From a virus, in the IMG/VR virus record IMGVR_UViG_3300008735_000113, positions 1 through 21,895 of that record: DNA of 21,895 nucleotides. One strand, 5' to 3'. The notes beneath the pieces were generated by a model. The model made no database searches, had not been told where the DNA came from, and saw only the letters and a program-made list of their open reading frames with translations. Within the stretch, counting starts at the first letter, position 1, and each line of letters starts with the position of its first letter. Position numbers and translations under genes: made by a program. Below are positions 2,917-21,895 of the stretch, piece after piece.

Positions 2917-5388
2917 ATGGCTAGAGTTAAAAATGGTAAAGGTAAAGTAAACCGTACATCAGACATGTATCACGCAGGCCATGGCAACTATAAGATAGTT
3001 AATAATACAAAATTTAGAACTAGAGGAAAAGTTACAGATGCATCAGGTAATACTATTTCAAAGTCAGCAGGACAAATTTATCAAGATGGACTTTACGCTG
3101 ATGGAGAACATTATATTCCTGATTTAAGTGGAGACAGCGAAATTGCATACTCTAATAAAGATGAAACTAAAACCAAAACTGGACCTGATCATACCTTTCT
3201 TCATAATATTTCTGATCCAAATCAATTATGGAAATATGCGTCTTACAATGTATTATTCACACTATCAGCGTTAAGTCAAAGTAATTTAGAAGATGTAAGC
3301 ACATTATTAAATTCCAAACTACACGACATAATAATAAGAAGTGCAGGGATTGGACCAACTGCTAATATGAAAGAAGGTCCACCAGGACAAGATAATCTTT
3401 CACCTGAAAATCGAAAAACAGTTAATAACAATGAAAAAATGAAAAAAGCACTTGAATATAGTCAAGTTGAGTTTCAAAAAAATAATGATATGTATTTTAA
3501 AAATGTCGAAATGAATTCTGTTCCAGGTTTAAATGAAGAAAGAAGAATGACATCTGTTACAAAGATTCAAATGGAAATTGTTGAACCATGGGGTATTACT
3601 TTATTAGAGAGGATTAAAGCCGCGGCCGCAAATAACGGATACCTAGATCATTTAGATGCACCATATATGTTAACAATAGATTTTGTAGGATGGGATGAAA
3701 AAGGTCAGCCAATTAAAGATGGAAAAAATTTAAAGCGGGTGATTCCGATTAAGTTAATAGACATGGAACTTGATATAAATCAAGGGGGAACAGTATATTC
3801 AGTGACTGCCATTCCAATTGGCGAAGCCGCTTATCTGAACCATTACAATAAGGTACGAACAGCAGGAACAATTATACCAGCAAAGAAAACATTTGGTGCA
3901 ATAGCAGAAGAATTAGAGAAAATTTTAAACAAACAAGTTAAAGACGAAACAGATGCTGGAATAAATGAAATACCTGACACATATAAAATTACATTTGATG
4001 AATCTTTTAATCCGTCCACTTCCATACCTGATATAAAAAGTTTACAACAACTGAAAATGCTTTCACAAAGTTATGACACATCAGCAGGGTATGGAGAAGG
4101 TCAAGTTGATGCCGCGTTATTCAAAGCGGCAAACGTAGATACTTCTATGGGTGATGTAGAATACATGAAAATAACTGCAGGCCAATCCATTACATATATT
4201 TTAGAAAATATAATGAAAGCACACCCAACGGTAACCAATGACAAATTTGAAGATTGGCAGAGTACTGTTAAAAGGAAGTTAGGAGAGGTTAAAGGTGGTG
4301 CATCGGCTGTATTTGAGGCATCTAAAACGGCAGAGATGCATTTTGATTATTTTAGAATTAGATCAACTGTAATCCCAACAACAGTATTTGATCCCAAAAG
4401 AAAAACAAATACTAAACTTATAGAATATGTAATCTCACCGTATAAACTTCATGCTTATAGTATTCCAGGTGGAATACCTGGGGTTAGTACAGGAGATAAT
4501 TTCAAACATTTTGTACACAAAACCTACAATTATATTTTTACAGGAGAGAATGTTGATATACTTGATCTTAATATTAAGTATAGAGTTGCATACTTTACCG
4601 CACAATTGAAAAATGTTGATAATACTAAAAAAAATAAAGTAGCAACCACCCATAATCCTCATATTGAAAAAACAGCAAGGACATCTGCACGGGATGATGC
4701 CCAAGATCAAACGTTTATTTTAAAATCAGAAGCAGGGATGGCTCAAAGTGGTGGCACAGGATTAACAGTTGGAGGTACTACAGCATTTGATCAATTTTTA
4801 GATTACTTATCTCATCCAAAAGCAGATATGGTTAATATAAGAATGGAGATTTTAGGAGATCCTGCATGGATTTCACAATCACAATTTATACCTGCAAATC
4901 CAAAATTCACTGGTGATGGAGAAAGTGTTGACCCAAACATTGGTATATTTCAACATACTAGGAATACTATTTGGAATGACGACCTTAAATGTTATAATGC
5001 GGATGTTGCCGAACCAATTATATTATTAAATTATAGAATGCCTACAGATATAAATGATAAAAAAGGTACATATGAATTACAGAATATAAAATCTGTATCT
5101 TTTTCAGGTCTGTACAGAGTAGTACAAGTAGAACACAGTTTTAACGAAGGCAAATATACTAATGTATTGCATATGGTAAGATTTAATAATCAAGGTTATG
5201 ATATATCAAAACCATATACTGAATATAAAATTTCTGGAGTTAATGGAGAAACATTTGTTGCTCCTAAAAAAGGCAATTTTAACGCAGAAACTTTTGATGA
5301 TATAGTTAATATTCAATCTAAAGCACAAAAAATTTTTAAAAATACATATAATAAAGTATTAAACAAAGTAACTGGAGGAATTCGTTAA
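2917..5388 (+). CDS. large virion structural protein, probable baseplate hub component
   Basis: 823 residues. I do not recognise a named T4 homologue. Visible parts: a polar N-terminal 200 residues; a conserved-looking stretch near 223-300 (WGITLLERIKAAAANN, then APYMLTIDFVGWDE and RVIPIKLIDMELDINQGG); and a C-terminal domain with GDPAWI (about 647) and SGLYRVVQVEHSFNEGKYTN (about 729-748) followed by VLHMVRFN. The last pattern, a beta strand pair ending a domain that handles displaced loops, resembles tail hub proteins of the gp27/gpD type. The gene lies between gp53 and gp5, and in T4 gp27 is the hub partner of gp5, so a gp27-equivalent role is reasonable but inferred. Good AGGAG site; its stop overlaps the gp5-like start by 1 base. 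Alternative: a separate structural protein of marine T4-like phages not equivalent to gp27. Confidence 0.6.
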   Translation: MARVKNGKGKVNRTSDMYHAGHGNYKIVNNTKFRTRGKVTDASGNTISKSAGQIYQDGLYADGEHYIPDLSGDSEIAYSNKDETKTKTGPDHTFLHNISDPNQLWKYASYNVLFTLSALSQSNLEDVSTLLNSKLHDIIIRSAGIGPTANMKEGPPGQDNLSPENRKTVNNNEKMKKALEYSQVEFQKNNDMYFKNVEMNSVPGLNEERRMTSVTKIQMEIVEPWGITLLERIKAAAANNGYLDHLDAPYMLTIDFVGWDEKGQPIKDGKNLKRVIPIKLIDMELDINQGGTVYSVTAIPIGEAAYLNHYNKVRTAGTIIPAKKTFGAIAEELEKILNKQVKDETDAGINEIPDTYKITFDESFNPSTSIPDIKSLQQLKMLSQSYDTSAGYGEGQVDAALFKAANVDTSMGDVEYMKITAGQSITYILENIMKAHPTVTNDKFEDWQSTVKRKLGEVKGGASAVFEASKTAEMHFDYFRIRSTVIPTTVFDPKRKTNTKLIEYVISPYKLHAYSIPGGIPGVSTGDNFKHFVHKTYNYIFTGENVDILDLNIKYRVAYFTAQLKNVDNTKKNKVATTHNPHIEKTARTSARDDAQDQTFILKSEAGMAQSGGTGLTVGGTTAFDQFLDYLSHPKADMVNIRMEILGDPAWISQSQFIPANPKFTGDGESVDPNIGIFQHTRNTIWNDDLKCYNADVAEPIILLNYRMPTDINDKKGTYELQNIKSVSFSGLYRVVQVEHSFNEGKYTNVLHMVRFNNQGYDISKPYTEYKISGVNGETFVAPKKGNFNAETFDDIVNIQSKAQKIFKNTYNKVLNKVTGGIR
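5374..5379 (+). promoter_or_regulatory. ribosome binding site for the gp5-like gene
   Basis: GGAGGA, 8 bases before the ATG at 5388 and within the end of the preceding gene; together with the TAATG overlap it suggests strong, coupled translation of the hub protein. Confidence 0.7.
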
Positions 5389-7256
5389 TGGCAGTATTAA
5401 AGCGTCATTTACGTGGTGCCACGTCAACCCCAGAAGCACCAGGTGTAGACGCAAGTTGGACTGCATTAACGCCCGGTCCATATATAGGCATTGTTAAAGG
5501 AAATAAAGATCCCGCTAGAATGGGTAGATTGAGTGTTTTTATTCCTTCACTTGCAAAAACACATAATCCACACGAACATCAATTAATTACTTGTGAATAT
5601 CTATCTCCGTTTTATGGTGCAAAAGCAGACAAATATAATATTCCTCATTCAAGAGATTATGCAGGTAGCCAACACAGTTATGGTTTTTGGGGTGTTCCAC
5701 CAGATTTAGAAACAAGAGTTTTAGTAATTTTTGCTGAAGGTAAAACAAATCAAGCATATTGGATTGGTTGTATACAAGACCCTTACACAAATCACATGGT
5801 ACCGGGTATTGCATCAAGTGAAAATACTTTTGATAAAACAACTGGATTAGATACTAATAATCCAAATGAAATGAAAAATGCAAGTGTTGATAAAAAATCA
5901 ACGTATGGGTCAACGAATGTACCGTCAGGAGAATTAAACAGAAGTGCGGCCGGTGCTTTAATGAACAATAACTATGATTCAAACGCAAAACCTATTCACC
6001 CGTTTGCAGATATATTAGTTAAACAAGGATTAAGTGCAGACAATATCAGAGGTAATACTACTTCTTCTGCAAGACGAGAATCTCCAAGTCAGGTGTTTGG
6101 AATAAGCACCCCAGGAAGAAAAGATACAACAACAACAAAAGTTCCAGTAGGTACAAAAGATTCAAGAGCGACTGATTATGTAACAAGAGGCGTTGGTCAT
6201 ACGTTTGTAATGGATGACGGTGATTTAGCAGGTGATAATCAACTTACAAGATTAAGAACAGCATCAGGACATCAACTTTTAATGCATGATACAGAAGGTG
6301 TTGTATATCTTGCTAATGGATCAGGAGATGCATTTATTGAAATGACAGCCGAAGGAAAAATTCACATTTATTCTGCAGAAAGTTTAAGTTTAAGAACTGG
6401 TGGAAACTTTAATGTACATTCAGATGCTGATATTCAATTCCATGCCACTAACGATATTAAATTTACAGCAGAAAATAATTTAAATTTAAATGCTGAAAAA
6501 AAGGTTCATGTTATAGGAGATTCAGGAATTTTGAGCAGTTCACAATCAGGAGCAATAAAAAATTACGGCAAAAAAGGTATATCATCTTATACAGCTGGTC
6601 AGCAATTACATGGCGCCAGTGGAGAATTTCATCTTCAAGGATCCAAGGTGCATTTTAATAAACCAATGGGTCGTCCAGGTTCAGGAGGAGGAGCAAGTAT
6701 TTCCGGTTGGGGACCGAGTTGGTTGAAACCTGCAGGAATTGGAATTAAAATTGATAAAAGTAAAAATGATGTTGAAGTTATAACAGATGGGGAATATATT
6801 AAACCATTAACAACAAATACAAAAACAACTGTTACAGACCTTGTTACACACGAACCATTTACTAGAAAACCAGCATTTAGTTCAGTAGGTGTAAAACCAT
6901 GGGACCTAGGCAGTTTAGGAAAATCTTGGAATAAACTTGCTAAGAATCCACTCGCTAAAGAATTTGTAGAACACAGAAATAGACTATCTGATGTACCTGC
7001 AATAAAATATGGGCAATACAAAGCAGACTTAAAACAGTATACAAAATCCATACTGAAAAACAACAGTAATTCAATTAAAATTAAAGAAACAAAAAAAATA
7101 TTTAAAGAAAATTATTCAAACTGGTTTAAAGTTAAGCCTATATTAACTGAAAAACCCAGTGTGGTAAATATCATACAACAAGGATATAATGTTGTTGCAG
7201 GAAGAATAGTCTCAGTAAGAGACAATATAACAAGTGCAATAAAAAAGTTTTTTTAA
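5388..7256 (+). CDS. 5: baseplate hub/spike protein, gp5-like, without lysozyme domain
   Basis: 622 residues. Residues about 25-131 form a gp5 N-terminal OB-fold-like domain: PGPYIGIVKGNKDPARMGRL, then FWGVPPDLETRVLVIF and YWIGCIQD. Residues 305-380 are the spike beta-helix: eight octads with hydrophobic leads at 317, 325, 333, 341, 349, 357, 365 and 373. In T4, gp5 trimers form the needle that pierces the outer membrane, with a lysozyme domain (about 170 residues) between OB fold and helix. Here the linker (about 135-265) is polar, low in complexity (KDTTTTKVPVGTKDSRATD), and shows no lysozyme signature, as in marine T4-like phages as I recall them. After the helix there is a roughly 195-residue extension starting with a glycine-rich turn (RPGSGGGAS, 429-437) and ending in a Lys/Asn-rich tail; T4 gp5 ends near its helix. 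The next gene starts directly after the stop. Confidence 0.85.
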   Translation: MAVLKRHLRGATSTPEAPGVDASWTALTPGPYIGIVKGNKDPARMGRLSVFIPSLAKTHNPHEHQLITCEYLSPFYGAKADKYNIPHSRDYAGSQHSYGFWGVPPDLETRVLVIFAEGKTNQAYWIGCIQDPYTNHMVPGIASSENTFDKTTGLDTNNPNEMKNASVDKKSTYGSTNVPSGELNRSAAGALMNNNYDSNAKPIHPFADILVKQGLSADNIRGNTTSSARRESPSQVFGISTPGRKDTTTTKVPVGTKDSRATDYVTRGVGHTFVMDDGDLAGDNQLTRLRTASGHQLLMHDTEGVVYLANGSGDAFIEMTAEGKIHIYSAESLSLRTGGNFNVHSDADIQFHATNDIKFTAENNLNLNAEKKVHVIGDSGILSSSQSGAIKNYGKKGISSYTAGQQLHGASGEFHLQGSKVHFNKPMGRPGSGGGASISGWGPSWLKPAGIGIKIDKSKNDVEVITDGEYIKPLTTNTKTTVTDLVTHEPFTRKPAFSSVGVKPWDLGSLGKSWNKLAKNPLAKEFVEHRNRLSDVPAIKYGQYKADLKQYTKSILKNNSNSIKIKETKKIFKENYSNWFKVKPILTEKPSVVNIIQQGYNVVAGRIVSVRDNITSAIKKFF

Positions 7257-7670
7257 ATGGCATACGAATCAGAAACAAACCAAAATTTAAGTAACTCGTC
7301 AGTTACGTTTAAAGGATTTTCATCAAAAGCTGAAAAGCAGAACTTTAAGGTTTATGATTTTGAGTGTGCTAAACAGGATCTCATAAATCGTTTGTCGGTA
7401 CGAAAGGGCGAAAGGGTGGAGAATCCTGAGTTTGGCACAATAATATATGATTGTTTATTTGAACCATTTACAGAGGATTTAAAAGATATAATAATCGATG
7501 ATATTACTGAAAATTTAAATGCAGATGCACGAATTAGTACACAAGAAATACTGGTTTCTGAGAAAGATCACGGTATAGCAATACAGGCTACTATAACGTA
7601 TGTGCCTTTAGATATTACAGAGAAATTACAATTTAGTTTTGATGAGAATTCATTATTACGTTTATCTTAA
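7257..7670 (+). CDS. 25: baseplate wedge protein, gp25-like
   Basis: 137 residues, the expected size for gp25 (T4: 132). The family signature is clear: DLINRLSVRKGERVENPEFG (about 39-58), followed by TIIYDCLFEPF. The GER...NPEFG...L.EP pattern is the GPW/gp25 motif shared with type VI secretion sheath-baseplate proteins (TssE). In the baseplate it sits in the wedge core with gp6 and gp53 and helps nucleate the sheath. The N-terminal 25 residues are polar and Ser/Asn-rich. The ATG follows the gp5-like stop with no gap, and no Shine-Dalgarno is visible (run of T before it), so it probably depends on coupled translation. It ends 44 bases before the next ATG, a gap that holds a late promoter. Confidence 0.9.
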   Translation: MAYESETNQNLSNSSVTFKGFSSKAEKQNFKVYDFECAKQDLINRLSVRKGERVENPEFGTIIYDCLFEPFTEDLKDIIIDDITENLNADARISTQEILVSEKDHGIAIQATITYVPLDITEKLQFSFDENSLLRLS

Positions 7671-7714: not shown

Positions 7715-10700
7715 ATGGCCACAACAGAACGACAGAACAGATTATTAGTTGCCGAGGATTGGCGTAAAATTTATCAAGCATTCAATCAGGCAGATTTCAA
7801 ATCGTACGATTTTGAAACGCTACGTAGAACAATGGTGGCATATCTACGTGAAAATTATCCAGATGATTTCAATGATTTTGTAGAAAGTTCAGAATATGTA
7901 GCACTTATTGATTTAATTGCTTACGTTGCTCAAGCACTTTCTTTCAGAGTAGATTTAAATGCTAGAGAAAACTTTCTAGAAACTGCAGAAAGAAGAAATT
8001 CTGTTCTAAGATTAGCAAGATTAATTAGCTATAATGCTAGAAGAAATCAACCTGCAACAGGATTATTAAAAATAGATTCTATATCTACAACACAAGATGT
8101 AAATGATTCTACAGGAGCCAATCTTGTAAATCAAAATATAATTTGGAATGATTCAGCAAATTCAAATTATAGAGAACAATTCATTGCAATTTTAAATGCG
8201 GCAAATCAAACTGGACAACTTTTTGGTTCACCAAGAGAGTCAGGAACAATTGGTGGAATATCAACTGAAGTCTATACTTTAAGTTCTGAGCAAACTGATT
8301 TACCAATTCATAGTTTTTCAACAACTATAGGTGGATCAACTAGAACTTTTGAAATAACTCCAAGTAGTATTGCAGATAGTGATTCAATTTATGAAGCACC
8401 TCCAGTACCAGGTACAGGTTTAACATATACTTACAGAACAGATGGTTCGGGTGATAGTTCTAACAACACAGGTTTTTTCTTTTTGTTTAAACAAGGTATA
8501 AGCGAAAATATAGAATTTACAGTTGATACAGCAATTACAAATTATGTTAAATCAATTTCTGCAACTAATATTAATAATACCGATGTTTGGTTGTACAAGT
8601 TAGATCAATTTGGACAACTTTTTGAACAATGGACACAAGTTCCATCGTTGTCAGGTAATAATGCAATTTATAATTCTTTGGCAAAAACAGAAAGAAACAT
8701 TTATAACGTTGTGACAAAAACAAATGATGCAATTGATTTAGTATTTGGTGATGGAAATTTTAGTAATTTACCTCTAGGAACATTTAGACTATATTATAGA
8801 AAAAGTGACAATGCCAAATATATGATTCAACCTGCTGATATGCAAGGTATACAAATAAATGTTCCATATACAGATGCTAATGGTGCAAGTCAGACACTAA
8901 ATTTAAGTTTAAGTCTTAAATCTTCGGTGTATAATTCAGCCACAACAGAGTCAAATTCTTCTATTAAAGAAAAAGCGGCACAAGTTTATTATTCGCAAAA
9001 TAGAATGATTACTGCAGAAGACTACCAAGTTGTGCCATTGTCAGCATCACAAGAGATTATTAAAGTAAGATCAGTAAACAGATCAGCATCGGGTATATCT
9101 AGAGCAAAAGAAATTTTAGATCCAACAGGAGCGTATTCAAATGTAAGTGTATTTGCTGACGACGGAATACTTTATAGAGAAGAAAGTACAAACGCATTTA
9201 CATTTACTTTTAGTAATAGAAATACTATTAAGTCAACAATTGATAATTCAATAGAGAAAAAACTTAAAGAAGCATATTCAAGACATTTTTATTATTTAAA
9301 ATACGGAACTAAAGATTTAAGTTCATTGACAGCCACGTGGAATTCAACTACTACAGCAACAAATACAAATACAGGATATTTCAAATCAGGTGGTCCACTT
9401 GTAACAGGTGACTTTGCAACATCTAACTTGAAATATGCAAAAGTTGGATCATTAATAAAATTTACATCACCAGATACAAGAGAATTTTTAAACAACACAC
9501 TTGTAACGTTAGGTACTGATAATGCAGAAGATAGAATGTGGGCAAAAATTGGTGCAGTAGTTAATGATGGTGCTAACAGTGGTGTAGGTAATTTAGAATC
9601 AGGTCTTGGACCAGTTACACTTAATAATATAATACCAGACGGTTCTGTGATATCGTTAGTTATACCAAACTTAACTACAACATTTGCAGACGATTTAAAA
9701 ACAGATATAATTGATCGAATAGAAGCATACGAAGAGTTTGGTTTAAGATATGATATTGATACTGAGACTTGGAAAGTAATAACAGCAACAAATTTAAGTG
9801 CAAGTTCTGTGTTTAGTTTAAGTAATACAGGATCAACAACAGGCACAAATTTAGATACAAGTTGGTGGTTTAAATTTACAAATGACGGTAACACGTATAC
9901 AGTAACATATAGAAGTTTAAATTATGTGTTTGAATCCGAAGGACAAAACAAGTTTCATTATGATGCACAAGAAAAAATTTATGATTATAAAACAGGAAAA
10001 TCTGTTAAAGATACAGTAAAAATTTTAAAAACAAACTCAATTGTATCAACAGGCAATTCAATTGGTTATCCAATTAATTGGCAAGTTACAGATACAGTTA
10101 CAGAAGTAGATGGGTATCAAGATAATAGAAAAGTAAAAGTTGGATTTTATGACGACGATGATGACAATGTAGTAGATAATCCAGAAATTTTTGATATTAT
10201 AGTAGAACCAGATACAAGTCCTACTCTAAAATTTGTTTTCTTTGAAAAATATATTTCATATAATAATATAGCAAGATACAAACCGTATGCCGCATCAAAT
10301 TTTGTAGTTTCATTAAACGAAGCAGACATAACGTTATCTAGTGCAACATACGCAGATAATCAATTATTTTATTTTTATGATTTAGCTGAAGATGTTATTA
10401 AAAAATATAGTTCAACAACAAATACGTTAACAACTACAACAGATTATATTGCTAGACGAGGAAGAAGTTCTATATCTTTCCAATACAAACACAATGCAGG
10501 ACAAGAAACTAGAATAGATCCTGCAGTATCAAATATTGTAGATGTTTATATGTTAGAAAGAACGTACGATAATTTATATAGAATTTGGTTGCAAGACGGA
10601 GGTACTAAACCAATACCATCAACAGCAGATCAAATGAGAATTTCTTATGCTGGTACACTTAATCCATTAAAATCATTATCTGATCAAATAATATATCATC

Positions 10701-11197
10701 CTGTAAAATATAAAATATTATTTGGAACAAATGCTGATGAAGAATTACAAGCAACTTTTAAAGTTGTAAAAAATCCTAAAACTAATGTTACAGATGCAGT
10801 TGTTAAAACAAGAGTAATTGCGGCAATAAATGAGTTTTTTGCATTAGACAATTGGGATTTTGGTGATACATTTTATTTTACAGAATTAGCCGCTTTTGTA
10901 CACAATCAACTGGCACCACATTTATTGACAGTTGTGATTGTACCAAATCAATCTGGACAAAGTTTTGGATCTTTGTTTCAACTAGATTCAGCGGCAGACG
11001 AGATTTTTATCAGTGGGGCCACCGTTGGTGATGTTTCGATTATAACTGCGTTAGGTGCTAATCAATTAGAAGCATCAGGAACAGTTGTAACAAGCACGTC
11101 AACCGCTACAACAAACACTACAACAGGTTCAGCAGTGTCAGGTTCCACTACATTAGGCTCCGGTTCAAGTACCGGCAGTAGTGGGACAGGATACTAA
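7715..11197 (+). CDS. 6: baseplate wedge protein, gp6-like, with enlarged middle region
   Basis: 1160 residues; T4 gp6 has 660. The N-terminus is characteristic: FKSYDFETLRRTMVAYLREN, then DFVESSEYVALIDLIAYVAQ and NARENFLETAERRNSVLRLA (to about 105). A baseplate J-like segment follows near 428 (NRMITAEDYQVVPLSASQEI). The C-terminal domain is also typical (about 1042-1111): NWDFGDTFYFTELAAFVHNQ, then FGSLFQLDSAADEIFISGA. In T4, gp6 dimers form the inner ring of the baseplate and bind gp25, gp53 and gp7. Between the J-like part and the C-terminal domain, about residues 490-1000 form a large beta-rich, Thr/Asn/Asp-rich region that explains the extra size; it includes a run of five Asp near 813. 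The protein ends in a roughly 38-residue Ser/Thr/Gly tail. Start chosen at the first ATG after the late promoter. The stop overlaps the next ATG by 1 base. Confidence 0.88.
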   Translation: MATTERQNRLLVAEDWRKIYQAFNQADFKSYDFETLRRTMVAYLRENYPDDFNDFVESSEYVALIDLIAYVAQALSFRVDLNARENFLETAERRNSVLRLARLISYNARRNQPATGLLKIDSISTTQDVNDSTGANLVNQNIIWNDSANSNYREQFIAILNAANQTGQLFGSPRESGTIGGISTEVYTLSSEQTDLPIHSFSTTIGGSTRTFEITPSSIADSDSIYEAPPVPGTGLTYTYRTDGSGDSSNNTGFFFLFKQGISENIEFTVDTAITNYVKSISATNINNTDVWLYKLDQFGQLFEQWTQVPSLSGNNAIYNSLAKTERNIYNVVTKTNDAIDLVFGDGNFSNLPLGTFRLYYRKSDNAKYMIQPADMQGIQINVPYTDANGASQTLNLSLSLKSSVYNSATTESNSSIKEKAAQVYYSQNRMITAEDYQVVPLSASQEIIKVRSVNRSASGISRAKEILDPTGAYSNVSVFADDGILYREESTNAFTFTFSNRNTIKSTIDNSIEKKLKEAYSRHFYYLKYGTKDLSSLTATWNSTTTATNTNTGYFKSGGPLVTGDFATSNLKYAKVGSLIKFTSPDTREFLNNTLVTLGTDNAEDRMWAKIGAVVNDGANSGVGNLESGLGPVTLNNIIPDGSVISLVIPNLTTTFADDLKTDIIDRIEAYEEFGLRYDIDTETWKVITATNLSASSVFSLSNTGSTTGTNLDTSWWFKFTNDGNTYTVTYRSLNYVFESEGQNKFHYDAQEKIYDYKTGKSVKDTVKILKTNSIVSTGNSIGYPINWQVTDTVTEVDGYQDNRKVKVGFYDDDDDNVVDNPEIFDIIVEPDTSPTLKFVFFEKYISYNNIARYKPYAASNFVVSLNEADITLSSATYADNQLFYFYDLAEDVIKKYSSTTNTLTTTTDYIARRGRSSISFQYKHNAGQETRIDPAVSNIVDVYMLERTYDNLYRIWLQDGGTKPIPSTADQMRISYAGTLNPLKSLSDQIIYHPVKYKILFGTNADEELQATFKVVKNPKTNVTDAVVKTRVIAAINEFFALDNWDFGDTFYFTELAAFVHNQLAPHLLTVVIVPNQSGQSFGSLFQLDSAADEIFISGATVGDVSIITALGANQLEASGTVVTSTSTATTNTTTGSAVSGSTTLGSGSSTGSSGTGY

Positions 11198-14100
11198 TGG
11201 CAGATAACCCAACAAACGCATTAACAAACCAAGAAGTTGTTAAACAAGGTAACAACGAGTATCGTAGAACTATTCAGCATTTACCTGCGTTTTATAGAAC
11301 AGATTCTAACACAAGATTTTTATCTAGTACATTAGATCCTTTAATTCAAAAAGGTGCATTAGAAAGATTAGATGGATTTATTGGTAGACAAGATGCTTAT
11401 ACAAGAAAAATTACTGACAGATATATTAGTGCAACTAGCAGAGATAGATTTGCATATCAATTAGAACCTGCCGTAACATATACAGATAAAGATACAACAT
11501 CGGTAAATCCTGAAGATCAAGTTAAATTTACAGGAACTTATGATGACTATATTAATCAAATAAAATATTTTGGTGGAAAAGTTGATAACCATGATAGACT
11601 AAACAAAGAAAAAGTTTACAGCTGGAATCCGGCCATTGATTATGATAAACTTGTTAATTACAGAGAATATTATTGGATACCTGAAGGTCTTAATGCAATT
11701 GAAATTGATACAATTGGTCCATCAGCAGTAGCAGAATATAAAGTTGAGGCATGGCCAGATGATGGTAGTTCAGCACGTGCTTGGAATTTACTTCATAGAG
11801 AAAATGAAAGAAATCCAATTTTAACTCTTTACAGAGGTAACACATACAAATTTATTGTAAACGCAAAAGGTCATCCATTGTGGATTATGACAGAACCTTA
11901 TAAGGATAAACTATCTACAGATGGTTCAACATCAACTTTATATACAACAGGCGTAACAAACAACGGAACAGCAGACGGTACAGTTACATTTACAGTACCA
12001 ACAAGTGCACCTGATACTTTATATTATCAGTGTGGCAATCACGATGCTATGTATGGTGTATTACAAATTAAAACGATAGATTCAAATAAAAAACTTAATC
12101 TTGCTAATGACATAATTGGAGTTAAAAATTATTCATTACGAACTTTAGATTTATCTAACGGAATGAAGATTAAATTTAAAACGTCTATTGTAGATCCGGC
12201 GTATCAAAATAAAGAATATTATGTTGAAGGAGTAGGTGATTCTATAACATTAACAAATATTGAAGATTTAATGACTCCAGAATCATATGCAACTGAAACA
12301 ACTATTTTATATGATAGTGTAACTTATGATTCACGACCATATGCAAAAGCATTTTATAGACCAGATACACAAGATTACATTACTATTAAAAGAGATTCAT
12401 TAGACCAAAATGCATGGTCAAGATATAATAGATGGTTTCATAGATCTGTTATAGAAAGAACAGCAGAAATTAACGATTTTACACCAACGTTAAACGAAAC
12501 TGACAGAGCAAAAAGACCAATTATAGAATTTGATTCTGGACTTGCACTTTATAATCACGGAACGCAGGCAAAAAAATCTGTTACACTTTATGATACAGTA
12601 ACAACAGATGCATTTAGCAGTGTAGTAAATCAAACAGGTTATATTGTTGATGGATTAAGTTTAGCAGAAGGCATGCGAGTAGTTTTTGCCGCAGATACAG
12701 ACCCAATTGTAAAAAATAAAATTTATGACGTTAATTTTGTAACAGCCGGAGATTCAACGCAGGTTATTACATTAACCGAAGCGTCTGACGGTACGCCAGC
12801 AAATAACGAATCAATTTTTATAGAGTTTGGAACAGTCAATCAAGGTAAAACATTTTACTATAATTCAACAACAGAACTTTGGACAACATCACAAAATAAA
12901 ACAAAAGTTAATCAACAACCATTGTTTGGTATGTGGGATAATAACGATATTTCATTTGATGATGAAACAAAGTATATAAATTCAACGTTTGCAGGAGCTA
13001 AAGTTTTTGCATATGCAATATCAGACACATCAACAACAGATACAGTATTAGGATTGAAAGTAAAATATAATACAATTAACAACGTGGGAGATATTGTATT
13101 TGATTCAGATCATACATCTGGTACATTTACATATAAATCAGATACAACAACAGTAACAAAAAATTTAGCAGAAGGACATTTACATTATACAACAGGTGCA
13201 GGAACACATAATAGTAAAAGTGCTTGGATTGAAAGAACTAATGAAAGTAAGCAAAGAGTAATTAGAACTTTTATTGTAGATGATACAGAAAAACAATTAT
13301 TTCCAATTGATTTTTATAAAGATTCTGTATCACTTACGGATCTAGAAGTTTCTGTTTTAGTAAACGGTATAAGAAAAACTTTAACAACTGATTATACTCT
13401 TGTAGATGGTACAGTTAACAAGTATGTGAAATTTGTTAAAGAATTAACTGTTGATGATCAAGTTAGAATTGCTGGATATAGTTCAGCCGACAAAGTAACA
13501 ACTAAAGGAATTTATGAAGTACCAGAAAATTTATCAACAAATAGTGTAAATGCACAGTTAGGCACGTTTACGTTTGGACAAATTTTAAATCATGTTAGAG
13601 ATATTTTTGATAAAAATCAAGATATTACAGGTGTTACCCCAGGAGTTTCAAATTTAAGAGATAAACCAAATGCAAGATTAAAAGGTGGAGCAATAAAACA
13701 ACATCAAGGAACATTACTTCCAGCAGTATTTGGATTAATTGATCAAGAATCAAACGTTTTATCAGCAATTGATTATTGTAATTTAGAATATGAAAAATGG
13801 TATGATTCATTTTTAACTAAGGCCGTTGGTACAGCATATGAAGGTGTCGTCGCAGACAGAGTTGATGAAATTATTGAAGCAATTGGTCAAGGAAAAAATA
13901 ATACTTTTCCATTTTATTATGATGATATGATAGGATATGGTGAAAATGTTTCAGTAAGATCTTATACTGTACAAGGTGCTTCACAAACAGAATATGCAAT
14001 TGATTCACAATTTGATATTACTACACCAAGCAATAGAGCGGTATATGTGTATCTAAATGATGTTCAATTGTTACTTGGCACAGATTATACGTTTAGTACA

Positions 14101-17100
14101 ATTGATGATAGTATAAACATTACAGCTACACTTGCAGTAGATGATAAAATTAAGATTAAAGATTATAGTGATACAACTGGAAGTTATATGCCAGCAACAC
14201 CAACGAAACTTGGAATGTATCCAAAATTTACACCTGAGAAATTTACTGATACAACTTATATTACTGATACATCGGTTATACGAAAACACGATGGTTCATT
14301 CATTAAAGCATATGGTGATGAAAGAGATGATTTAATTTTAGAACTAGAAAAAAGAATTTATAACAATTGTAAAACAACGTATGATGCAACATTGTTAGAT
14401 ATTAATGATGTAATGCCATCAGCATTTGCCTCAACAGAATATACATTACAAGAGGTTAATGATGTAATGGGTTCGGATTTTTATGTTTGGGCAGGTAGAA
14501 ATAATGTTCAATATTTGAATAATACACAATTTACAGAAGGGTCACCGTTCACATACAATTATGCTAAATCAACTGATCGAGTAAACAATCAAAGTTTGCC
14601 AGGACATTGGAGAGGCATATACAAATATTTTTATGATACTGACTCACCGCATACAAGACCATGGGAGATGTTAGGACATTCAGAAAAACCAAGTACTTGG
14701 GAGGCTACATATGGAGTGGCACCTTATACTTCTGGCAATACTGTGTTATGGGACGCTATTGCAACACAGCCAGGAAGATATGGAAAACCTGAAATTACAA
14801 GTCATCTTCCTGTAGATGCATCAGGAAACTTATTAGACCCAATTGCGGCAAAACTTGTAGATAATTTTGATATTCCAGGTAGAAGAGCAGGTTGGAAATT
14901 TGGAGACCAAGCACCTGCAGAGACATCGTGGAGAAGAGCGTCAGCATACCCATTTACTATAATGAAAACTTTAGCATTAACAAAACCTGCTAAATTTTTT
15001 AATTTATATTTTGATCTATCTAGATTATCAACAAATGTATCAGGAAATTTAATTTATACAGATACAAGCATAAGAACACAACTGTCAACAGCCAAATATC
15101 ATATAGAAACTGTTACAGATAATACAACAGGAACAGTTACAAGATACAACACAGCAGGGTACCAATCTTTTGTAGTTAATTATTTGTCTTCAAGAAATCT
15201 TGATCCTAATATTTTTTATTACAAAAAAATGAAAAACTTGTCTGTACAAATGGCTTATAAGTTAGGTGGGTTCACAGATAAAGATAATTTAAAAGTATTA
15301 ACAGATTCAGTTTCACCAGGATCAACTTCTGGTTCTAAATTTGTACCGGATGAAAACTATAAAATATTATTTAGAACATCAAATCCTGTAGAAAGTTTTT
15401 ACTATTCAGGTGTATTAATAGAAAAGAATACAGATATTGGTATAGATGGATCTACCCTTTTAGGTGGTTATAAAGTTTTAGGATATTCAACAAAAAAACC
15501 ATATTTCAATTTTTATTATCCAACAAAATCAATTACAAATAAAAAAGTTTCTGTATCGGATGTAGAAGTTGAACGGTATTCAAATTATCAAGAAACAGTT
15601 CAAACTATTCCATATGGATATGTATTTGAAACTATTCAAGATGTATCAGACTTTTTGTTTGGTTACGGAAAATGGTTAGAAGAACAAGGATTTAAATTTG
15701 ACAAATATTCAAATGAAATTAAAGAAACATTAAATTGGCAGAATGCAGTAAAAGAATTTTTATTTTGGACTACACAAAACTGGTCTGCAGGGTCAGCTAT
15801 TACAGTTTCACCTGCCGCAGAAGGTTTTGAATTAGATACTAATAATTCTATTGTAGGTAAACTAAGAAACTTATCTGGTGATTATTCGTCGTTAGATGCA
15901 GGTGGAAGAAAACTTGATATAAGAGAAATGTCAACAAAACGTATTGGCAAAACTTTTGATTTAGAAATAAAATCACAAGATGTTGGTTTATATAATATTG
16001 CTTTGAATACAGTACAAAAAGAACACATTCTTTTATTTGATAATAGTACAGTGTTTTCAGATATCATTTATGATCCTTATACAGGATTCCGTCAACAAAA
16101 ATTAAAATTAGTAGGGTGGAAAACAGCAGGATGGAATGGTGATTATTATGCACCAGGCTTTGTATTTGATGCCGCACAGATTACATATTGGTTAAAAAAT
16201 ACAGATTATAAAGTTGGTGATAGTGTTGAATATCAAGGAAGATTTTATGTTGCAAAAATAAATCATAATTCAGGTACAACATTTGTAACAGAAAGTTGGA
16301 TGTTAAAATTAGAAAAACCAGCACCACAGCTGATTCCAAACTTTGATTATAAGATTTCACAATTTAATGATTTTTATAATTTAGAATCAAATAATTTTGA
16401 TGAATCACAGCAAGAACTTGCACAACGATTAATTGGGTATCAGTCAAGAGATTATTTAGAAAATCTTTTTGTTAATGATGTATCACAATATAAATTTTAT
16501 CAAGGATATATTAAAGAAAAAGGAACTCAAAATGCAATTAACAAATTGCTTAAAGCCAAATACGAAGAGTCTGATATTACTTTAGATTTGTATCCAGAAT
16601 GGATGATTAGAACTGGAAGAATTGGTAATACAGACGCTAGAGAAAATATACAAATAACTTTAAAAGATAATGAGATTGTAGCAAATCCACAAAGTATTGA
16701 GTTGTTGGGTACGTCTAATGACACAAAAGCATATACTAGAAGTTTAGGAGTTCCTGCAGATGATTTTTATAGTAAACCTGTAGAATATACAGCAAGTTCA
16801 ACATTTGCAAGATATGATTATACAACAGCAGGTATAGATAGAGATACAATTCAAGTTTATAAAAACGCAGGCTATCCACAATTAACTCAAGTACAACATA
16901 CAGCATTTAATATAACTGAATTATTAAATCTTGATGTTAATGTTTTAACACAAAATGATTTAATATGGGTAGCAAATAAATCAAATTTGGATTGGGACGT
17001 GTATCGTTTTACATCAGCAGGAATTAAAATACAGTCATTAAGATCACTTAATGATTCTACACAAATGGAAATTATATTTACTGACAGTCATGGATTAAGT

Positions 17101-20100
17101 GCTGGATCAACAACAACACTACCTGATTATTTTGCAATTGTCAATTCAGAAGAAACAACATTAAATCAAGTATATCAAGTTAGTAGTATACCAAATCATA
17201 AAACAGTTATAATTGATTATACAGGAGAGTCAGCATTTATTCCTACATTAGAAGATGGATCAACCGCTGATAGTTATGGAAATGTTTACAAATTTGTTTC
17301 TGTAAGATTAAGCTCAATGGACAACGTGAATGATCTTTTAAGTTATAATGTATATGAAGATAAAAACGATGCAATTGAAAGAGAAGGTGATAAAGTTTTT
17401 GCAGATGCAGATTCATTAGGTTTATGGCGTGTTTATGAAAAACAAGATCCATATACAACTGCAAGAATACTTTCACCAGATACCACAACAGCAGATCAAG
17501 ATTTTGGTTATCAAATTGTTGCAAGAAATGACGGTAGAACAGTTGTAGTTTCAGCACCAACAAAAGGACAAGGTGCTGTTCATTTCTTATTCCGTTCAAG
17601 TTCTTCAGCAGGAACAACATTTAGTACACAAAGTTCTGTAACAATGACTGAAAATGATGATTCAACAAGTAAATTAGGTTATTCATTATCAATGAGTACA
17701 GATGAAAACTTTGTAGTTGCAGGAGCACCATATACGAATACAATTGGTGCAGATGGCAGTACAAGATTTTCAGACGCAGGTTTAGTTAAAATATATTTGT
17801 GGGAACCAACAACATTCAAATACGGAATATTAAACACAATAACACCACCAACAGATGTTGCATCACAAAACTTTGGTTGGGCACATAAAATTTGTGAACC
17901 GACTGCTAGTTCTACTAGATCTAGTTCAGTAAAATATATGTTTGTATCAGCACCAGGAACAGGTACAGATGCCGGCACAGTTTATATGTACGAATGGGGA
18001 GTTGGTGCAGATGGTTCTACATATGATACCTGGACACAAAATTTAACAATAACTTCATCTGTACCAGGCACAAATAAAAGATTTGGACATAGACTAGAAG
18101 CAAATGATAATGGTGATATACTTGCTATTAGTTCTAAAGCACCGGGACAAGCAGGAAAAGTAGAAATTTATAGAAGAACATCGCAATCAAGTGATGACAG
18201 TGTACATCATTCGTTTACTCTTGTACAAACATTAGAAGGAACAAGTTCAGATGGATCAAGTTTAAACACTCAGTTTGGTGAATCATTAGCAATGAGTAAA
18301 GATGGTACAACTTTAATAGTTGGTGCACCAGGATATGATGATAGTAGTCAAGCAGATGCCGGAGCCATTTATTATTACAAATGGGACGCTGACGGAGATT
18401 CAACACTAGCTTATACATTACAACAAACAATTATAGCACCCGATACTCAAGTTAATATGAAGTTTGGCTCAACAGTAGATATAAATGATGCAGGTACAAG
18501 ACTAGTAATTGGTGCTGAAAAATTCTCAAATAATAGAGAAATGTTATTTGATTCAGGCGAAACAACATTTGATTTGCAAGATACAAGATTTGTTGATGAA
18601 AATGTTGGGTCAGGTGGTGCTTATACAGCGACTATGTACAATACAAAATTTATTATTGATGACAGACTAATAACAACACAGGTTTCTGCAAATGATGATT
18701 TTGGAAAAGGTGTATGTGTAATAGACAATACAGTATTAGTAGGTGCTCCAGATGATGACGGTAACATAGGAGCAGATGGAAGCTCAGTCGTTAGCAATGA
18801 TGGAACAGTAACCCAGTTTGACTTAACAGTTAATGGTGAATATGCTTGGAAACAACTTACATATGAAACTTCATTAATAGATATTAATAAACTTGGACAA
18901 GTGTTTGAATTTAATAAATCTACAAAACAAATTAGAGATTATTATGATTTGTATGATCCTGTAAAAGGTAGAATACTTGGAATTGCAGATAGAGAAATTG
19001 ATATTAAGACAACTTGGGATCCTGCAACGTATAATGTTGGAGACAATGCAAATACTAAACTAGCATGGGCAGAGGATCATATTGGAGAAGTTTGGTGGGA
19101 TTTATCTAAAGTAAAATGGTTATGGTATGAACAAGACACACAAGAATATAAAACAAACAATTGGGGTAAAACATTTCCTGGATCTAGTATAGACATTTAT
19201 GAATGGACAGAAACAATATTATTACCTAGTGAATATAATGATCCTAATGTTCAAGCAGTAAACGGAATACCATTAAACGAAACACAATATACTGTTAAAC
19301 AAAAATACAATTCTGTACTTGATGGATTTGTAAATTACTATTATTATTGGGTAAAAAATAAAACTAGTATGCCAACTAATAGTGTGGTGCAAAGAAAAAA
19401 TACTACTGCTTATATTACTAATTTAATTACAAATCCACAAAGATTTGATTTTAAATATTATGCAGTAACAGATACAGATAAATTTTTAATTTACAATGTA
19501 GGTAATCTTATAAACGATAATATAATTTTAAATGCTGATATCAGAACAAATACATTTGAGGGTGATGCACACTCAGTATGGAAATTAGTTAGAGAAGGTG
19601 ATAAATTTTATCGCCCGGGAACACAAATTGAAACACGTTGGTGGGATTCGTTAATAGGTGAAAATAGCACCGGCGATAAAGTGCCTGATCCTGGGTTATC
19701 TGTAAACGAAAGATATGGAAATAATATTAGACCAAGACAAAGTTGGTATGTAGATAGATATAATGCTTTAAAAGAAACACTTGATTATGCAAATATAATT
19801 TTGAAAAAACATCAATTAATTGGCACAATTAATTTAACAAATTTAGATTCAAAAGATTTAGAACCAACTGCTGAAAGTTTAGAGTGGGACGCTAAAGTTG
19901 ACACTTATGCTGACTTAACTTATATTAATACTGCTGACTTATCAGGAACAGTAAAATATCTTGTTTCAGCAGACGAAACTGCTAACGGATTTTGGGCAAT
20001 ATACACTTGGGATGGCACAGAATGGACGAGAACAAAAGTTCAAACATATAACACTAGCAAATACTGGAGTTATATAGATTGGTATGACATAAGTGGTGAT

Positions 20101-21895
20101 TTAGGACATTTACATAGTGAAAATACAAAAATTGACAAACAAGTAACGTATCAATATGAATTAGATACATTAGAACTTGATATAGGAAAACACGTTAAAG
20201 TAACATCAGCTGATACAGGAGGTTGGAAATTGTTTATGAAAACTTCTACAGGTTGGAAGAATGTTGGAACAGAAAACGGAACTATTAAATTATCAACTAA
20301 ACTGTATGATTATTCACAAGATGCAACAGGGTTTGCAGGACAAGATAATTTTGATGATAATTTCTTTGATCAAGAACCAACAAAAGAAACAAGAAAAATT
20401 TTAACTGCATTAAGAGATGACTTATTCATTAATAATCTTGCTGTAGAATATAATACATTATTCTTTACAGGTTTAAGAAAAGTATTATCTGAACAAACTT
20501 ATGTTGATTGGGTGTTTAAAACTTCATTTATGAATGCTAAAAATTCTGCAAGACAACTAGATCAAAGAAAAACCTACACAACAGGTACAGATGCTTGGGT
20601 TGAAAGTTATATTAATGAAGTAAAACCATTTCATACAAAATTAAGAGAATACAAATTAGGTTACACAGGTACAGATACAGAAGATGGAATGTTTACTGAT
20701 TTTGATAATCCACCATTTTATAGTGACAACGATGGAAAAATTAGAACGTTAAATGTATCAAGTGATACAAGTAAATTATCTGAATATCCTTGGCAGATGT
20801 GGAACGATTATCATAAAAAATATGTTTCATCTATTACTGTTGCGTCAGGAGGAGCAGGATATACTGTTGCACCTACTGTAACTATATTAGGAGGTACTGT
20901 TAATAGTACAGGGCCATTCCAAGTATTAGGTACAAGTAGTTCAGGTAGTACAAGCGGAACATATGGATATTACTATCCATTGTTTACAAGTGAGAAACAA
21001 GCACAAATTTTTGACACACAAAATAACAGTGGTTCAGGTGTAGCAAATTCATATACATTTGATGATTTCACAGGTACATTTTATATGCCTGCTAGTACAT
21101 CATTTACAGGACAAACTGCAAAATCTGGTGATTACAAAATGTACACAACACCAGACACAGATGCGGCAACTGCCACAGCAACAGTAAAAAATGGTGAAGT
21201 TACACAAATTATTGTAACAGGTAAAGGTAGAAATTATACAGCAACGCCAACTGTTGTAATTACAGGTGGAACCGATAGTGGAGCAAACGCATCTACTGTT
21301 GCTAAAGCATATGCAAATTTAAACAACGATCTTGTTAGAGATTTTGATGTTACAATGAAGTTTGACAGAATTAAATCTACGCACGATGTTGTAGATTGGG
21401 CGTCATCAACTTCTTATGCATATGGACAATTAATTAGATATAACAACGAATTATATAAAGCAACAAGTGCCTTTACGTCAACAACAAAATTTAAAGAAAG
21501 CATAGGAGATCTTTATAAAGTTTATGGTGATGAAACAGGTTTAACAGCATCAGACAGAGCAAAAGGTTTTTACACACCAACCGCAGGAATGCCAGGTAAT
21601 GAATTATCACAAATTATGGCAGGTGTTGATTACGGTGGAACAATGGTTACAGGATTATTGTTTTCACAAGGACAAGGATGGGATAAATCAGGTTGGTATG
21701 ATTTTCCTTGGGACGCTTATGGAACATCAAACATTAAAACATTTACAGCAGACGGAACAACTAGAACATTTACATTTGCTACTGCTCCAGCAACAACAGA
21801 TGTTTATCAAGTTTATATAAGTTCTGATGATAGTACACGTTTAAAATTAGACGATGTTATTAGAGGAGATGGATCAACAACTACATTTACTTTAA
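11197..21895 (+). CDS. giant virion structural protein in the gp7 position (baseplate wedge/fibre type), 3' end outside the window
   Basis: Open from the ATG at 11197 (overlapping the gp6 stop; AGGA at 11188-11191, spacing 5) to the last base: 3566 complete codons read in one frame without a stop, at least about 390 kDa. T4 gp7 is 1032 residues. The N-terminus (HLPAFYRTDSNTRFLSSTLD, then PLIQKGALERLDGFIGRQDA and YQLEPAVTY) and a later part (about 1735-1795: ESQQELAQRLIGYQSRDYLE, then NDVSQYKFYQGYIKEKGTQN) look like the large structural proteins that follow gp6 in marine T4-like phages. Order: conserved N-terminus; cupredoxin-like domain (206-294); beta modules A (688-762) and B (918-991); fibre-like beta regions; W..GD-type module (1665-1701); seven FG-GAP-like repeats (2103-2525); a Trp-rich region (about 2630-2680, HIGEVWWDLSKVKWLWYEQ); a VESYINEVKPFHTKLREYK stretch near 3140; two G-x-GY strands (3213, 3338); second W..G module (3401); partial module C (3513-end). 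The gp7 equivalence is inferred from position only. Confidence 0.82.
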   Translation, partial: MADNPTNALTNQEVVKQGNNEYRRTIQHLPAFYRTDSNTRFLSSTLDPLIQKGALERLDGFIGRQDAYTRKITDRYISATSRDRFAYQLEPAVTYTDKDTTSVNPEDQVKFTGTYDDYINQIKYFGGKVDNHDRLNKEKVYSWNPAIDYDKLVNYREYYWIPEGLNAIEIDTIGPSAVAEYKVEAWPDDGSSARAWNLLHRENERNPILTLYRGNTYKFIVNAKGHPLWIMTEPYKDKLSTDGSTSTLYTTGVTNNGTADGTVTFTVPTSAPDTLYYQCGNHDAMYGVLQIKTIDSNKKLNLANDIIGVKNYSLRTLDLSNGMKIKFKTSIVDPAYQNKEYYVEGVGDSITLTNIEDLMTPESYATETTILYDSVTYDSRPYAKAFYRPDTQDYITIKRDSLDQNAWSRYNRWFHRSVIERTAEINDFTPTLNETDRAKRPIIEFDSGLALYNHGTQAKKSVTLYDTVTTDAFSSVVNQTGYIVDGLSLAEGMRVVFAADTDPIVKNKIYDVNFVTAGDSTQVITLTEASDGTPANNESIFIEFGTVNQGKTFYYNSTTELWTTSQNKTKVNQQPLFGMWDNNDISFDDETKYINSTFAGAKVFAYAISDTSTTDTVLGLKVKYNTINNVGDIVFDSDHTSGTFTYKSDTTTVTKNLAEGHLHYTTGAGTHNSKSAWIERTNESKQRVIRTFIVDDTEKQLFPIDFYKDSVSLTDLEVSVLVNGIRKTLTTDYTLVDGTVNKYVKFVKELTVDDQVRIAGYSSADKVTTKGIYEVPENLSTNSVNAQLGTFTFGQILNHVRDIFDKNQDITGVTPGVSNLRDKPNARLKGGAIKQHQGTLLPAVFGLIDQESNVLSAIDYCNLEYEKWYDSFLTKAVGTAYEGVVADRVDEIIEAIGQGKNNTFPFYYDDMIGYGENVSVRSYTVQGASQTEYAIDSQFDITTPSNRAVYVYLNDVQLLLGTDYTFSTIDDSINITATLAVDDKIKIKDYSDTTGSYMPATPTKLGMYPKFTPEKFTDTTYITDTSVIRKHDGSFIKAYGDERDDLILELEKRIYNNCKTTYDATLLDINDVMPSAFASTEYTLQEVNDVMGSDFYVWAGRNNVQYLNNTQFTEGSPFTYNYAKSTDRVNNQSLPGHWRGIYKYFYDTDSPHTRPWEMLGHSEKPSTWEATYGVAPYTSGNTVLWDAIATQPGRYGKPEITSHLPVDASGNLLDPIAAKLVDNFDIPGRRAGWKFGDQAPAETSWRRASAYPFTIMKTLALTKPAKFFNLYFDLSRLSTNVSGNLIYTDTSIRTQLSTAKYHIETVTDNTTGTVTRYNTAGYQSFVVNYLSSRNLDPNIFYYKKMKNLSVQMAYKLGGFTDKDNLKVLTDSVSPGSTSGSKFVPDENYKILFRTSNPVESFYYSGVLIEKNTDIGIDGSTLLGGYKVLGYSTKKPYFNFYYPTKSITNKKVSVSDVEVERYSNYQETVQTIPYGYVFETIQDVSDFLFGYGKWLEEQGFKFDKYSNEIKETLNWQNAVKEFLFWTTQNWSAGSAITVSPAAEGFELDTNNSIVGKLRNLSGDYSSLDAGGRKLDIREMSTKRIGKTFDLEIKSQDVGLYNIALNTVQKEHILLFDNSTVFSDIIYDPYTGFRQQKLKLVGWKTAGWNGDYYAPGFVFDAAQITYWLKNTDYKVGDSVEYQGRFYVAKINHNSGTTFVTESWMLKLEKPAPQLIPNFDYKISQFNDFYNLESNNFDESQQELAQRLIGYQSRDYLENLFVNDVSQYKFYQGYIKEKGTQNAINKLLKAKYEESDITLDLYPEWMIRTGRIGNTDARENIQITLKDNEIVANPQSIELLGTSNDTKAYTRSLGVPADDFYSKPVEYTASSTFARYDYTTAGIDRDTIQVYKNAGYPQLTQVQHTAFNITELLNLDVNVLTQNDLIWVANKSNLDWDVYRFTSAGIKIQSLRSLNDSTQMEIIFTDSHGLSAGSTTTLPDYFAIVNSEETTLNQVYQVSSIPNHKTVIIDYTGESAFIPTLEDGSTADSYGNVYKFVSVRLSSMDNVNDLLSYNVYEDKNDAIEREGDKVFADADSLGLWRVYEKQDPYTTARILSPDTTTADQDFGYQIVARNDGRTVVVSAPTKGQGAVHFLFRSSSSAGTTFSTQSSVTMTENDDSTSKLGYSLSMSTDENFVVAGAPYTNTIGADGSTRFSDAGLVKIYLWEPTTFKYGILNTITPPTDVASQNFGWAHKICEPTASSTRSSSVKYMFVSAPGTGTDAGTVYMYEWGVGADGSTYDTWTQNLTITSSVPGTNKRFGHRLEANDNGDILAISSKAPGQAGKVEIYRRTSQSSDDSVHHSFTLVQTLEGTSSDGSSLNTQFGESLAMSKDGTTLIVGAPGYDDSSQADAGAIYYYKWDADGDSTLAYTLQQTIIAPDTQVNMKFGSTVDINDAGTRLVIGAEKFSNNREMLFDSGETTFDLQDTRFVDENVGSGGAYTATMYNTKFIIDDRLITTQVSANDDFGKGVCVIDNTVLVGAPDDDGNIGADGSSVVSNDGTVTQFDLTVNGEYAWKQLTYETSLIDINKLGQVFEFNKSTKQIRDYYDLYDPVKGRILGIADREIDIKTTWDPATYNVGDNANTKLAWAEDHIGEVWWDLSKVKWLWYEQDTQEYKTNNWGKTFPGSSIDIYEWTETILLPSEYNDPNVQAVNGIPLNETQYTVKQKYNSVLDGFVNYYYYWVKNKTSMPTNSVVQRKNTTAYITNLITNPQRFDFKYYAVTDTDKFLIYNVGNLINDNIILNADIRTNTFEGDAHSVWKLVREGDKFYRPGTQIETRWWDSLIGENSTGDKVPDPGLSVNERYGNNIRPRQSWYVDRYNALKETLDYANIILKKHQLIGTINLTNLDSKDLEPTAESLEWDAKVDTYADLTYINTADLSGTVKYLVSADETANGFWAIYTWDGTEWTRTKVQTYNTSKYWSYIDWYDISGDLGHLHSENTKIDKQVTYQYELDTLELDIGKHVKVTSADTGGWKLFMKTSTGWKNVGTENGTIKLSTKLYDYSQDATGFAGQDNFDDNFFDQEPTKETRKILTALRDDLFINNLAVEYNTLFFTGLRKVLSEQTYVDWVFKTSFMNAKNSARQLDQRKTYTTGTDAWVESYINEVKPFHTKLREYKLGYTGTDTEDGMFTDFDNPPFYSDNDGKIRTLNVSSDTSKLSEYPWQMWNDYHKKYVSSITVASGGAGYTVAPTVTILGGTVNSTGPFQVLGTSSSGSTSGTYGYYYPLFTSEKQAQIFDTQNNSGSGVANSYTFDDFTGTFYMPASTSFTGQTAKSGDYKMYTTPDTDAATATATVKNGEVTQIIVTGKGRNYTATPTVVITGGTDSGANASTVAKAYANLNNDLVRDFDVTMKFDRIKSTHDVVDWASSTSYAYGQLIRYNNELYKATSAFTSTTKFKESIGDLYKVYGDETGLTASDRAKGFYTPTAGMPGNELSQIMAGVDYGGTMVTGLLFSQGQGWDKSGWYDFPWDAYGTSNIKTFTADGTTRTFTFATAPATTDVYQVYISSDDSTRLKLDDVIRGDGSTTTFTL
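11812..12078 (+). other. cupredoxin-like domain with type 1 copper ligand pattern, inside the giant protein
   Basis: Residues 206-294. It starts with a beta strand pair (LTLYRGNTYKFIVNAKGHPLWIM read from about 209), continues with TVTFTVPTSAPDTLYYQC and ends with GVLQIKTI. Candidate copper ligands are H226 (in GHP), C279, H282 and M285; the last three are spaced C-x2-H-x2-M, the spacing I know from amicyanin (Cys92, His95, Met98). The fold and ligand set are those of small blue copper proteins; whether metal is bound in the virion is unknown. It could also serve as a plain beta-sandwich adhesin module. Confidence 0.68.
13258..13482 (+). repeat. beta module, copy A, inside the giant protein
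   Basis: Residues 688-762: starts VIRTFIVDDTEKQ, contains VSVLVNGIRKTLTTDYTLVD and ends LTVDDQVRIAGYS. It aligns by eye with copy B (13948-14169) in the core VxVxVNGxxxxLxTDYT...L..DD.I.I..YS. Such modules are common in phage fibre and baseplate proteins. The sequence identity is at protein level, not DNA level, so this is an old duplication or a reused fold. Confidence 0.6.
13948..14169 (+). repeat. beta module, copy B, inside the giant protein
   Basis: Residues 918-991: starts VSVRSYTVQGASQTEY, contains VYVYLNDVQLLLGTDYTFST and ends LAVDDKIKIKDYS. It pairs with copy A 230 residues upstream. The C-terminal end of the visible protein (from 21733) starts a similar pattern. Confidence 0.6.
16189..16299 (+). 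other. aromatic W..GD module, copy 1, inside the giant protein
   Basis: Residues 1665-1701 with pattern W-x7-VGD-x-V-x-Y-x-G-x-FY-x-A...TFV-x3-W. The arrangement of Trp and Tyr recalls small carbohydrate-binding modules of the CBM5/12 type found in phage and chitinase proteins. A degenerate second copy lies at 21397-21492. Fold assignment is by pattern only. Confidence 0.4.
17503..18777 (+). repeat. seven FG-GAP-like repeats (probable beta-propeller) inside the giant protein
   Basis: Repeat starts at residues 2103 (FGYQ), 2160 (LGYS), 2226 (FGWA), 2296 (FGHR), 2360 (FGES), 2423 (FGST) and 2502 (FGKG), spaced 57, 66, 70, 64, 63 and 79. Each has the pattern F-G-x3-(alternating hydrophobic)-x-D/N-G-(strand)-(G/S)-A-P, for example FGYQIVARNDGRTVVVSAPT and FGESLAMSKDGTTLIVGAPG; the sixth has GAE in place of GAP. 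Most are followed by a G-x-(V/I)-x-(I/M)-Y strand (GTVYMYEW, GAIYYYKW). This is the integrin-alpha-type FG-GAP repeat, and seven would close one propeller. In known proteins such propellers bind protein or glycan partners, sometimes with calcium; the Asp-rich loops here (DDSSQADAG, DDDGNIGADG) could do that. Confidence 0.75.
20833..21270 (+). repeat. two G-x-GY/APTV beta-strand repeats inside the giant protein
   Basis: ITVASGGAGYTVAPTVTILG from residue 3213 and IIVTGKGRNYTATPTVVITG from residue 3338 share the plan I-x-V-x2-G-x-G-x2-Y-x3-P-T-V-x-I-x-G-G, 125 residues apart. Such strands are frequent in phage fibre and baseplate proteins. Between them lies a Thr/Ser/Tyr-rich insert. Confidence 0.55.
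21397..21492 (+). other. aromatic W..G module, copy 2, inside the giant protein
   Basis: Residues 3401-3432: WASSTSYAYGQLIRYNNELY followed by KATSAFTSTTKF. Same layout as copy 1 (W, then Y-x-x-G, then Y-x-x-x-x-Y-x-A, then T..F), with the GD reduced to G. Confidence 0.38.

Follow-up and report, generated by a model that had tools for sequence, protein, structure and literature searches.

A predicted type 1 copper domain inserted in the giant baseplate protein that a marine jumbo-type phage encodes

Cupredoxins are well known and iron sites on phage tails have been described. Among the mononuclear cupredoxins (amicyanin, plastocyanin and pseudoazurin; PF00127), amicyanin has the ligand loop spacing C-x2-H-x2-M, and rusticyanin is a free periplasmic electron carrier with a longer C-x4-H-x4-M loop. 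The tethered cupredoxins of copper nitrite reductases (9cck, 6hbe and 2dv6) are added domains of a catalytic copper enzyme. Within the reach of our literature search, iron is the only metal whose presence on tails has been discussed: the HxH iron-binding sites in T4 gp37 and in the fibres of marine phages are octahedral, built from His pairs and placed in a trimeric fibre, and the Ferrojan/Trojan Horse hypothesis proposes such tail-borne iron for marine phages (PMC11705849). A search without most subscription journals and without bioRxiv preprints returned no paper on type 1 copper domains on phage tails; viral nirK (PMC8115048) encodes a copper protein different from the domain described here.

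The domain lies in a window of 21,895 nt, the whole stretch of DNA that was analysed. It is predicted to share its fold and ligand set with amicyanin, plastocyanin and pseudoazurin, from which it differs in being part of a giant virion protein and in carrying HP rather than HN after the first His. All four ligands align with those of rusticyanin in a profile match. It resembles the tethered domains of copper nitrite reductases in being an added domain, and its CxxHxxMxG loop is spaced identically to that of 9cck and 6hbe, whereas the phage protein has no visible catalytic copper site. Metal ions on tails would be common to the T4 gp37 and marine fibre sites and to the copper proposed here, but the site in this domain is predicted to be mononuclear and to contain Cys. 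The favoured explanation of the insert, with a probability of about 0.7, is a cupredoxin domain with a mononuclear type 1 (blue) copper site, which a marine jumbo-type phage displays on its baseplate wedge.

Genomic setting of the giant protein and its insert

Open reading frames of the window were compared with phage protein families, and the following features frame the domain:

2615..2914, + strand: gp53-like baseplate wedge subunit (phrog_7145)
5388..7256, + strand: gp5-like baseplate hub protein (phrog_13211, baseplate hub subunit and tail lysozyme)
7257..7670, + strand: gp25-like baseplate wedge subunit (phrog_261 and phrog_43, baseplate wedge subunit)
7715..11197, + strand: gp6-like baseplate wedge subunit, adjoining the giant gene upstream (phrog_10646, E 3.5e-289)
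11197..21895, + strand: giant protein assigned to the baseplate, an ORF of 3566 aa or more that continues past the window end
11716..12084, + strand: predicted cupredoxin domain, residues about 174-296 (AlphaFold2, fold matches and insertion alignment)

The genes upstream run in the order gp53-like, virion structural protein, gp5-like hub, gp25-like and gp6-like, which leaves the giant protein in the gp7 position; the protein itself matches phrog_10938 (virion structural protein; E 8.6e-110 and 5e-230). The giant protein is assigned as a baseplate wedge component on the grounds of gene order and protein family, not of structure, and the placing of the domain on a baseplate protein in the initial annotation was borne out to that extent. 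A late-transcription sigma factor (684-1661, - strand; phrog_12791, E 4.8e-85) lies on the strand opposite to the baseplate cassette.

The closest isolate relatives of the giant protein are giant virion proteins of jumbo phages (e.g., Atu_ph07, Phosso, PA5oct, RaK2 and 121Q), and homologues are present in 57 jumbo phage records. Giant cyanophage proteins labelled 'similar to gp7' were considered as homologues and rejected: a query taken from downstream of the domain hit jumbo phages and not cyanophages, so the cyanophage matches most likely come from the cupredoxin domain. Giant phage proteins are also encoded on contigs placed in Pelagibacter, Porticoccaceae and Betaproteobacteria MAGs (L184-L187), which are probably viral contigs binned with bacteria.

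Alignment to the giant proteins of Atu_ph07, Phosso, Paride and Vibrio phage 2.275.O places the domain as an insert at one point of the giant protein, and it is absent at the same point in those four jumbo phages. Since the giant protein lacks the domain in jumbo phages whose hosts are terrestrial or enteric, the domain is read from these alignments as an acquired insert. In a tree of the family, in which the deeper forks are poorly resolved, the giant-protein version forms one clade (100/99), and so a single acquisition by the giant protein fits. At the insertion site Atu_ph07 (L100) and Phosso (L103) have a short segment, some 60 residues long, that differs from the domain; the site may be a place of module exchange.

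Fold and ligand set of the domain

Positions 11812-12078 (+ strand), to which the domain had been assigned, translate to residues 206-294 of the ORF beginning at 11197. AlphaFold2 was run on the window domain together with 73 relatives and gave eight strands at a pLDDT of 90.5 and a pTM of 0.85. The location of the cupredoxin was upheld; its N-terminal limit was moved about 30 residues earlier (to about 174), and the domain is taken as residues about 174-296 because the first modelled strand comprises residues 178-185. A longer model (residues 21-502) was of low confidence (pLDDT 53) except in the domain and the segment after it.

Against solved structures, the 50 VIA-align matches listed had Z-scores of 10.1-10.6, with an rmsd of 2.4-3.1 across 99-104 residues, and each was either a two-domain laccase or a copper nitrite reductase; rusticyanin was among the Foldseek matches, at moderate TM-scores of about 0.55. 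AlphaFold2, Foldseek and VIA-align thus each point to a Greek-key beta-sandwich of the cupredoxin type, in agreement with the initial reading. Membership of the multicopper oxidases or copper nitrite reductases was rejected: only one cupredoxin domain of this family occurs within the 21,895-nt window, and its HPL(W)IM motif is without the further His of HPFHLHGH. Some PDB sequence matches (8a14 and 9rxk, for example) seem to be due to tags or fusions and were set aside.

The proposed ligands are as follows:

11872..11874, + strand: H226, N-terminal His ligand in the motif GHP(F/L) (conservation; aligned with rusticyanin H85)
12031..12033, + strand: C279, thiolate ligand (register and conservation)
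12040..12042, + strand: H282, second His ligand (register and conservation)
12049..12051, + strand: M285, axial ligand, Gln in one relative (register and conservation)

Translation confirms these four residues and the C-x2-H-x2-M spacing. In the model, H226 lies in the loop between strands 216-222 and 229-231, and C279, H282 and M285 in that between strands 274-278 and 286-292; type 1 ligands of cupredoxins occupy the same two loops. The predicted fold is therefore in favour of a type 1 site rather than of ligands far apart.

A profile built from 22 distant phage relatives of the domain was searched against the PDB and retrieved rusticyanin, plastocyanin, amicyanin, pseudoazurin, azurin and copper nitrite reductase; copper proteins made up 39 of the 53 matches at E<=1 (best, 4e-4). 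In the profile alignment the four ligands stand in register with rusticyanin H85, C138, H143 and M148, copper nitrite reductases have the same CxxHxxMxG loop, and the order His, Cys, His, Met with a known type 1 loop spacing is preserved. The first His is followed in the domain by Pro-Phe/Leu, for which the alignment with 6vox offers a comparison. Cupredoxins usually have Asn or Ser there; the Pro after H226 counts against a type 1 site but is not fatal, because multicopper oxidases have HPF at that place.

PF00127 (Copper-bind) gave no match for the window domain and weak matches for 12 of 74 family members (best E 2.5e-4), L195 scoring 20.3 bits against a cut-off of 21.2; the NCBIfam amicyanin model matched five of the 74, also weakly. 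The best Pfam match is PF25489 (At5g54830-like), a model named after a plant protein, which 58 of the 74 members match (E down to 6.6e-7); the window domain scores 24.9 bits, below its cut-off of 27.

Conservation of the site and the nature of the metal

The full ligand set is present in 312 of 318 distinct matches, in 82 of 84 clusters at 70% and in 23 of 24 clusters at 50%. Across the clusters at 50%, H226, H282 and M285 are 100% conserved and C279 96% conserved, so that they rank with the best conserved columns of the domain; this speaks for ligands conserved throughout the family. All four are invariant in 64 close relatives. A chance pattern was ruled out on this basis, since the protein's remaining cysteines in the stretch compared, C861 and C1058, vary (each kept in 10 of 64); C279 is the sole conserved Cys within the first 1250 residues. 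Some searches had used patterns containing the ligands, and a control sample was fetched with residues 395-470, outside the domain: the domain was found in 80/80 giant proteins and the full ligand set in 77/80, which counters selection bias from motif-based searching. Free variation of the His, Cys or Met positions among homologues, which would have spoken against the site, was thus not seen in either set.

One of the six incomplete cases (L151) is a contig that ends after the Cys. The exceptions in the control sample are L501, L483 and L492. Single exchanges occur in L501 (on the same contig as L109; H to M) and in L483 (M to Q), M to Q being a natural axial exchange known from stellacyanin. 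In L492 (940-1220), H226 is replaced by D, C279 by S and H282 by T, with the frame intact and the rest of the domain kept, and in S-CREM2 (L096) the whole ligand motif is lost. Such exceptions, either a single exchange or the joint disappearance of three ligands or of the entire motif, fit one coupled site; taken with the conservation, this is the pattern of a single metal site that is under selection and lost as a unit. L492 is a natural three-ligand-loss relative that could be used as a control protein, and site-loss relatives of this kind provide ready natural controls.

These data bear on whether any metal is bound. The domain could be a receptor- or glycan-binding beta-sandwich whose residues are conserved for the fold only, with no metal in life, a reading suggested by where it sits, namely on exposed proteins that include gp9 (at the C-terminus in 80/80 gp9-type loci) and fibres, and by a few weak family matches to a carbohydrate-binding Pfam model. 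We hold it to be quite improbable: Cys, two His and Met are kept jointly in 23 of 24 clusters at 50%, whereas a bare cupredoxin fold needs none of them, and L492 keeps the remaining domain sequence without three of the ligands, so the fold seems independent of them.

Alternatively, the site may be real and hold zinc (or iron) in the virion, as a purely structural metal like the T4 gp37 fibre iron. Baseplates are put together in the cytoplasm, which offers zinc and little free copper; yet a His2-Cys-Met set with amicyanin spacing, in which Met is conserved too, is that of copper proteins, and zinc sites normally have no need of Met. Phage tail fibres with His sites that bind iron are on record (PMC11705849). 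Such a metal is judged unlikely, copper being preferred over zinc because Met is retained. Copper binding by the domain is strongly predicted from fold, ligand register and conservation; that the site could hold zinc or no metal in nature counts against the type 1 copper reading, as do the dispensability of the domain, seen from homologous baseplates without it and relatives without the site, the moderate Foldseek TM-scores and the lack of a Pfam match above cut-off for the window domain.

Distribution and possible use of the domain

Searching a phage collection with the domain gave 343 records at E<=1, almost only marine cyanophages and pelagiphages; jumbo phages of Klebsiella, Pseudomonas, Salmonella and Erwinia that have the giant protein were not among these matches. 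With relatives in about 340 phage records, the view of the domain as an isolated peculiarity of one phage baseplate was not supported. Family members sit at the C-terminus of gp9-type proteins, inside P-SSM2-type fibre-like proteins and in cyanopodovirus proteins of unknown function.

Under the type 1 copper reading, a pre-shaped His2-Cys-Met site would take up one copper ion per domain. Loading would probably follow lysis, in the periplasm or in seawater, since free copper is sparse in the cytoplasm, the place of baseplate assembly. Once bound, the metal might pin the loops of the beta-sandwich and so harden a module for decoration or adhesion that is exposed on the tail.

Type 1 copper sites are classic electron carriers and the hosts of many carriers of the domain are photosynthetic, so that a redox-active domain might exchange electrons with host surface or periplasmic proteins and thereby trigger or time adsorption and ejection. 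This is the least probable of the readings weighed here: homologous baseplates work without the domain, and its presence at varying positions of unrelated proteins favours a self-contained module over a dedicated electron-transfer partner. Stability and surface binding would be likelier uses of copper than electron transfer.

Cyanophages, pelagiphages and marine jumbo-type phages share the near-invariant site, placed on gp9, fibres or baseplates. Hundreds of marine phages have related domains on tail proteins, which suggests that many viruses of the ocean may have copper-bearing tails. More tentatively, and at somewhat less than even odds, the domain would represent a widespread, uncatalogued type 1 copper family built into the tails of a considerable fraction of the tailed phages in the sea; their virions would hold copper, employ it for adsorption or stability and rank among the copper ligands of seawater. 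A recurrent site of this kind would open adsorption and virion stability to tests of a part played by copper, and abundant ocean viruses would be tied to copper chemistry.

The family also extends beyond phages. Bacterial genomes encode short secreted relatives with full ligands, including one with a signal peptide (L192) and one with a lipoprotein signal (L197), both recognized by eye; the secreted and lipoprotein members L189, L190, L192 and L197 have no Pfam match above cut-off. Mimicry of a host periplasmic copper protein, which had been suggested for the phage domain, gained no specific support, although these secreted relatives exist. Structural matches in BFVD were tail fibre proteins, baseplate proteins and giant-virus beta-sandwich proteins, the last being Pithovirus and Marseillevirus 'beta-sandwich proteins' (including A0A481Z6J5) that resemble the domain structurally.
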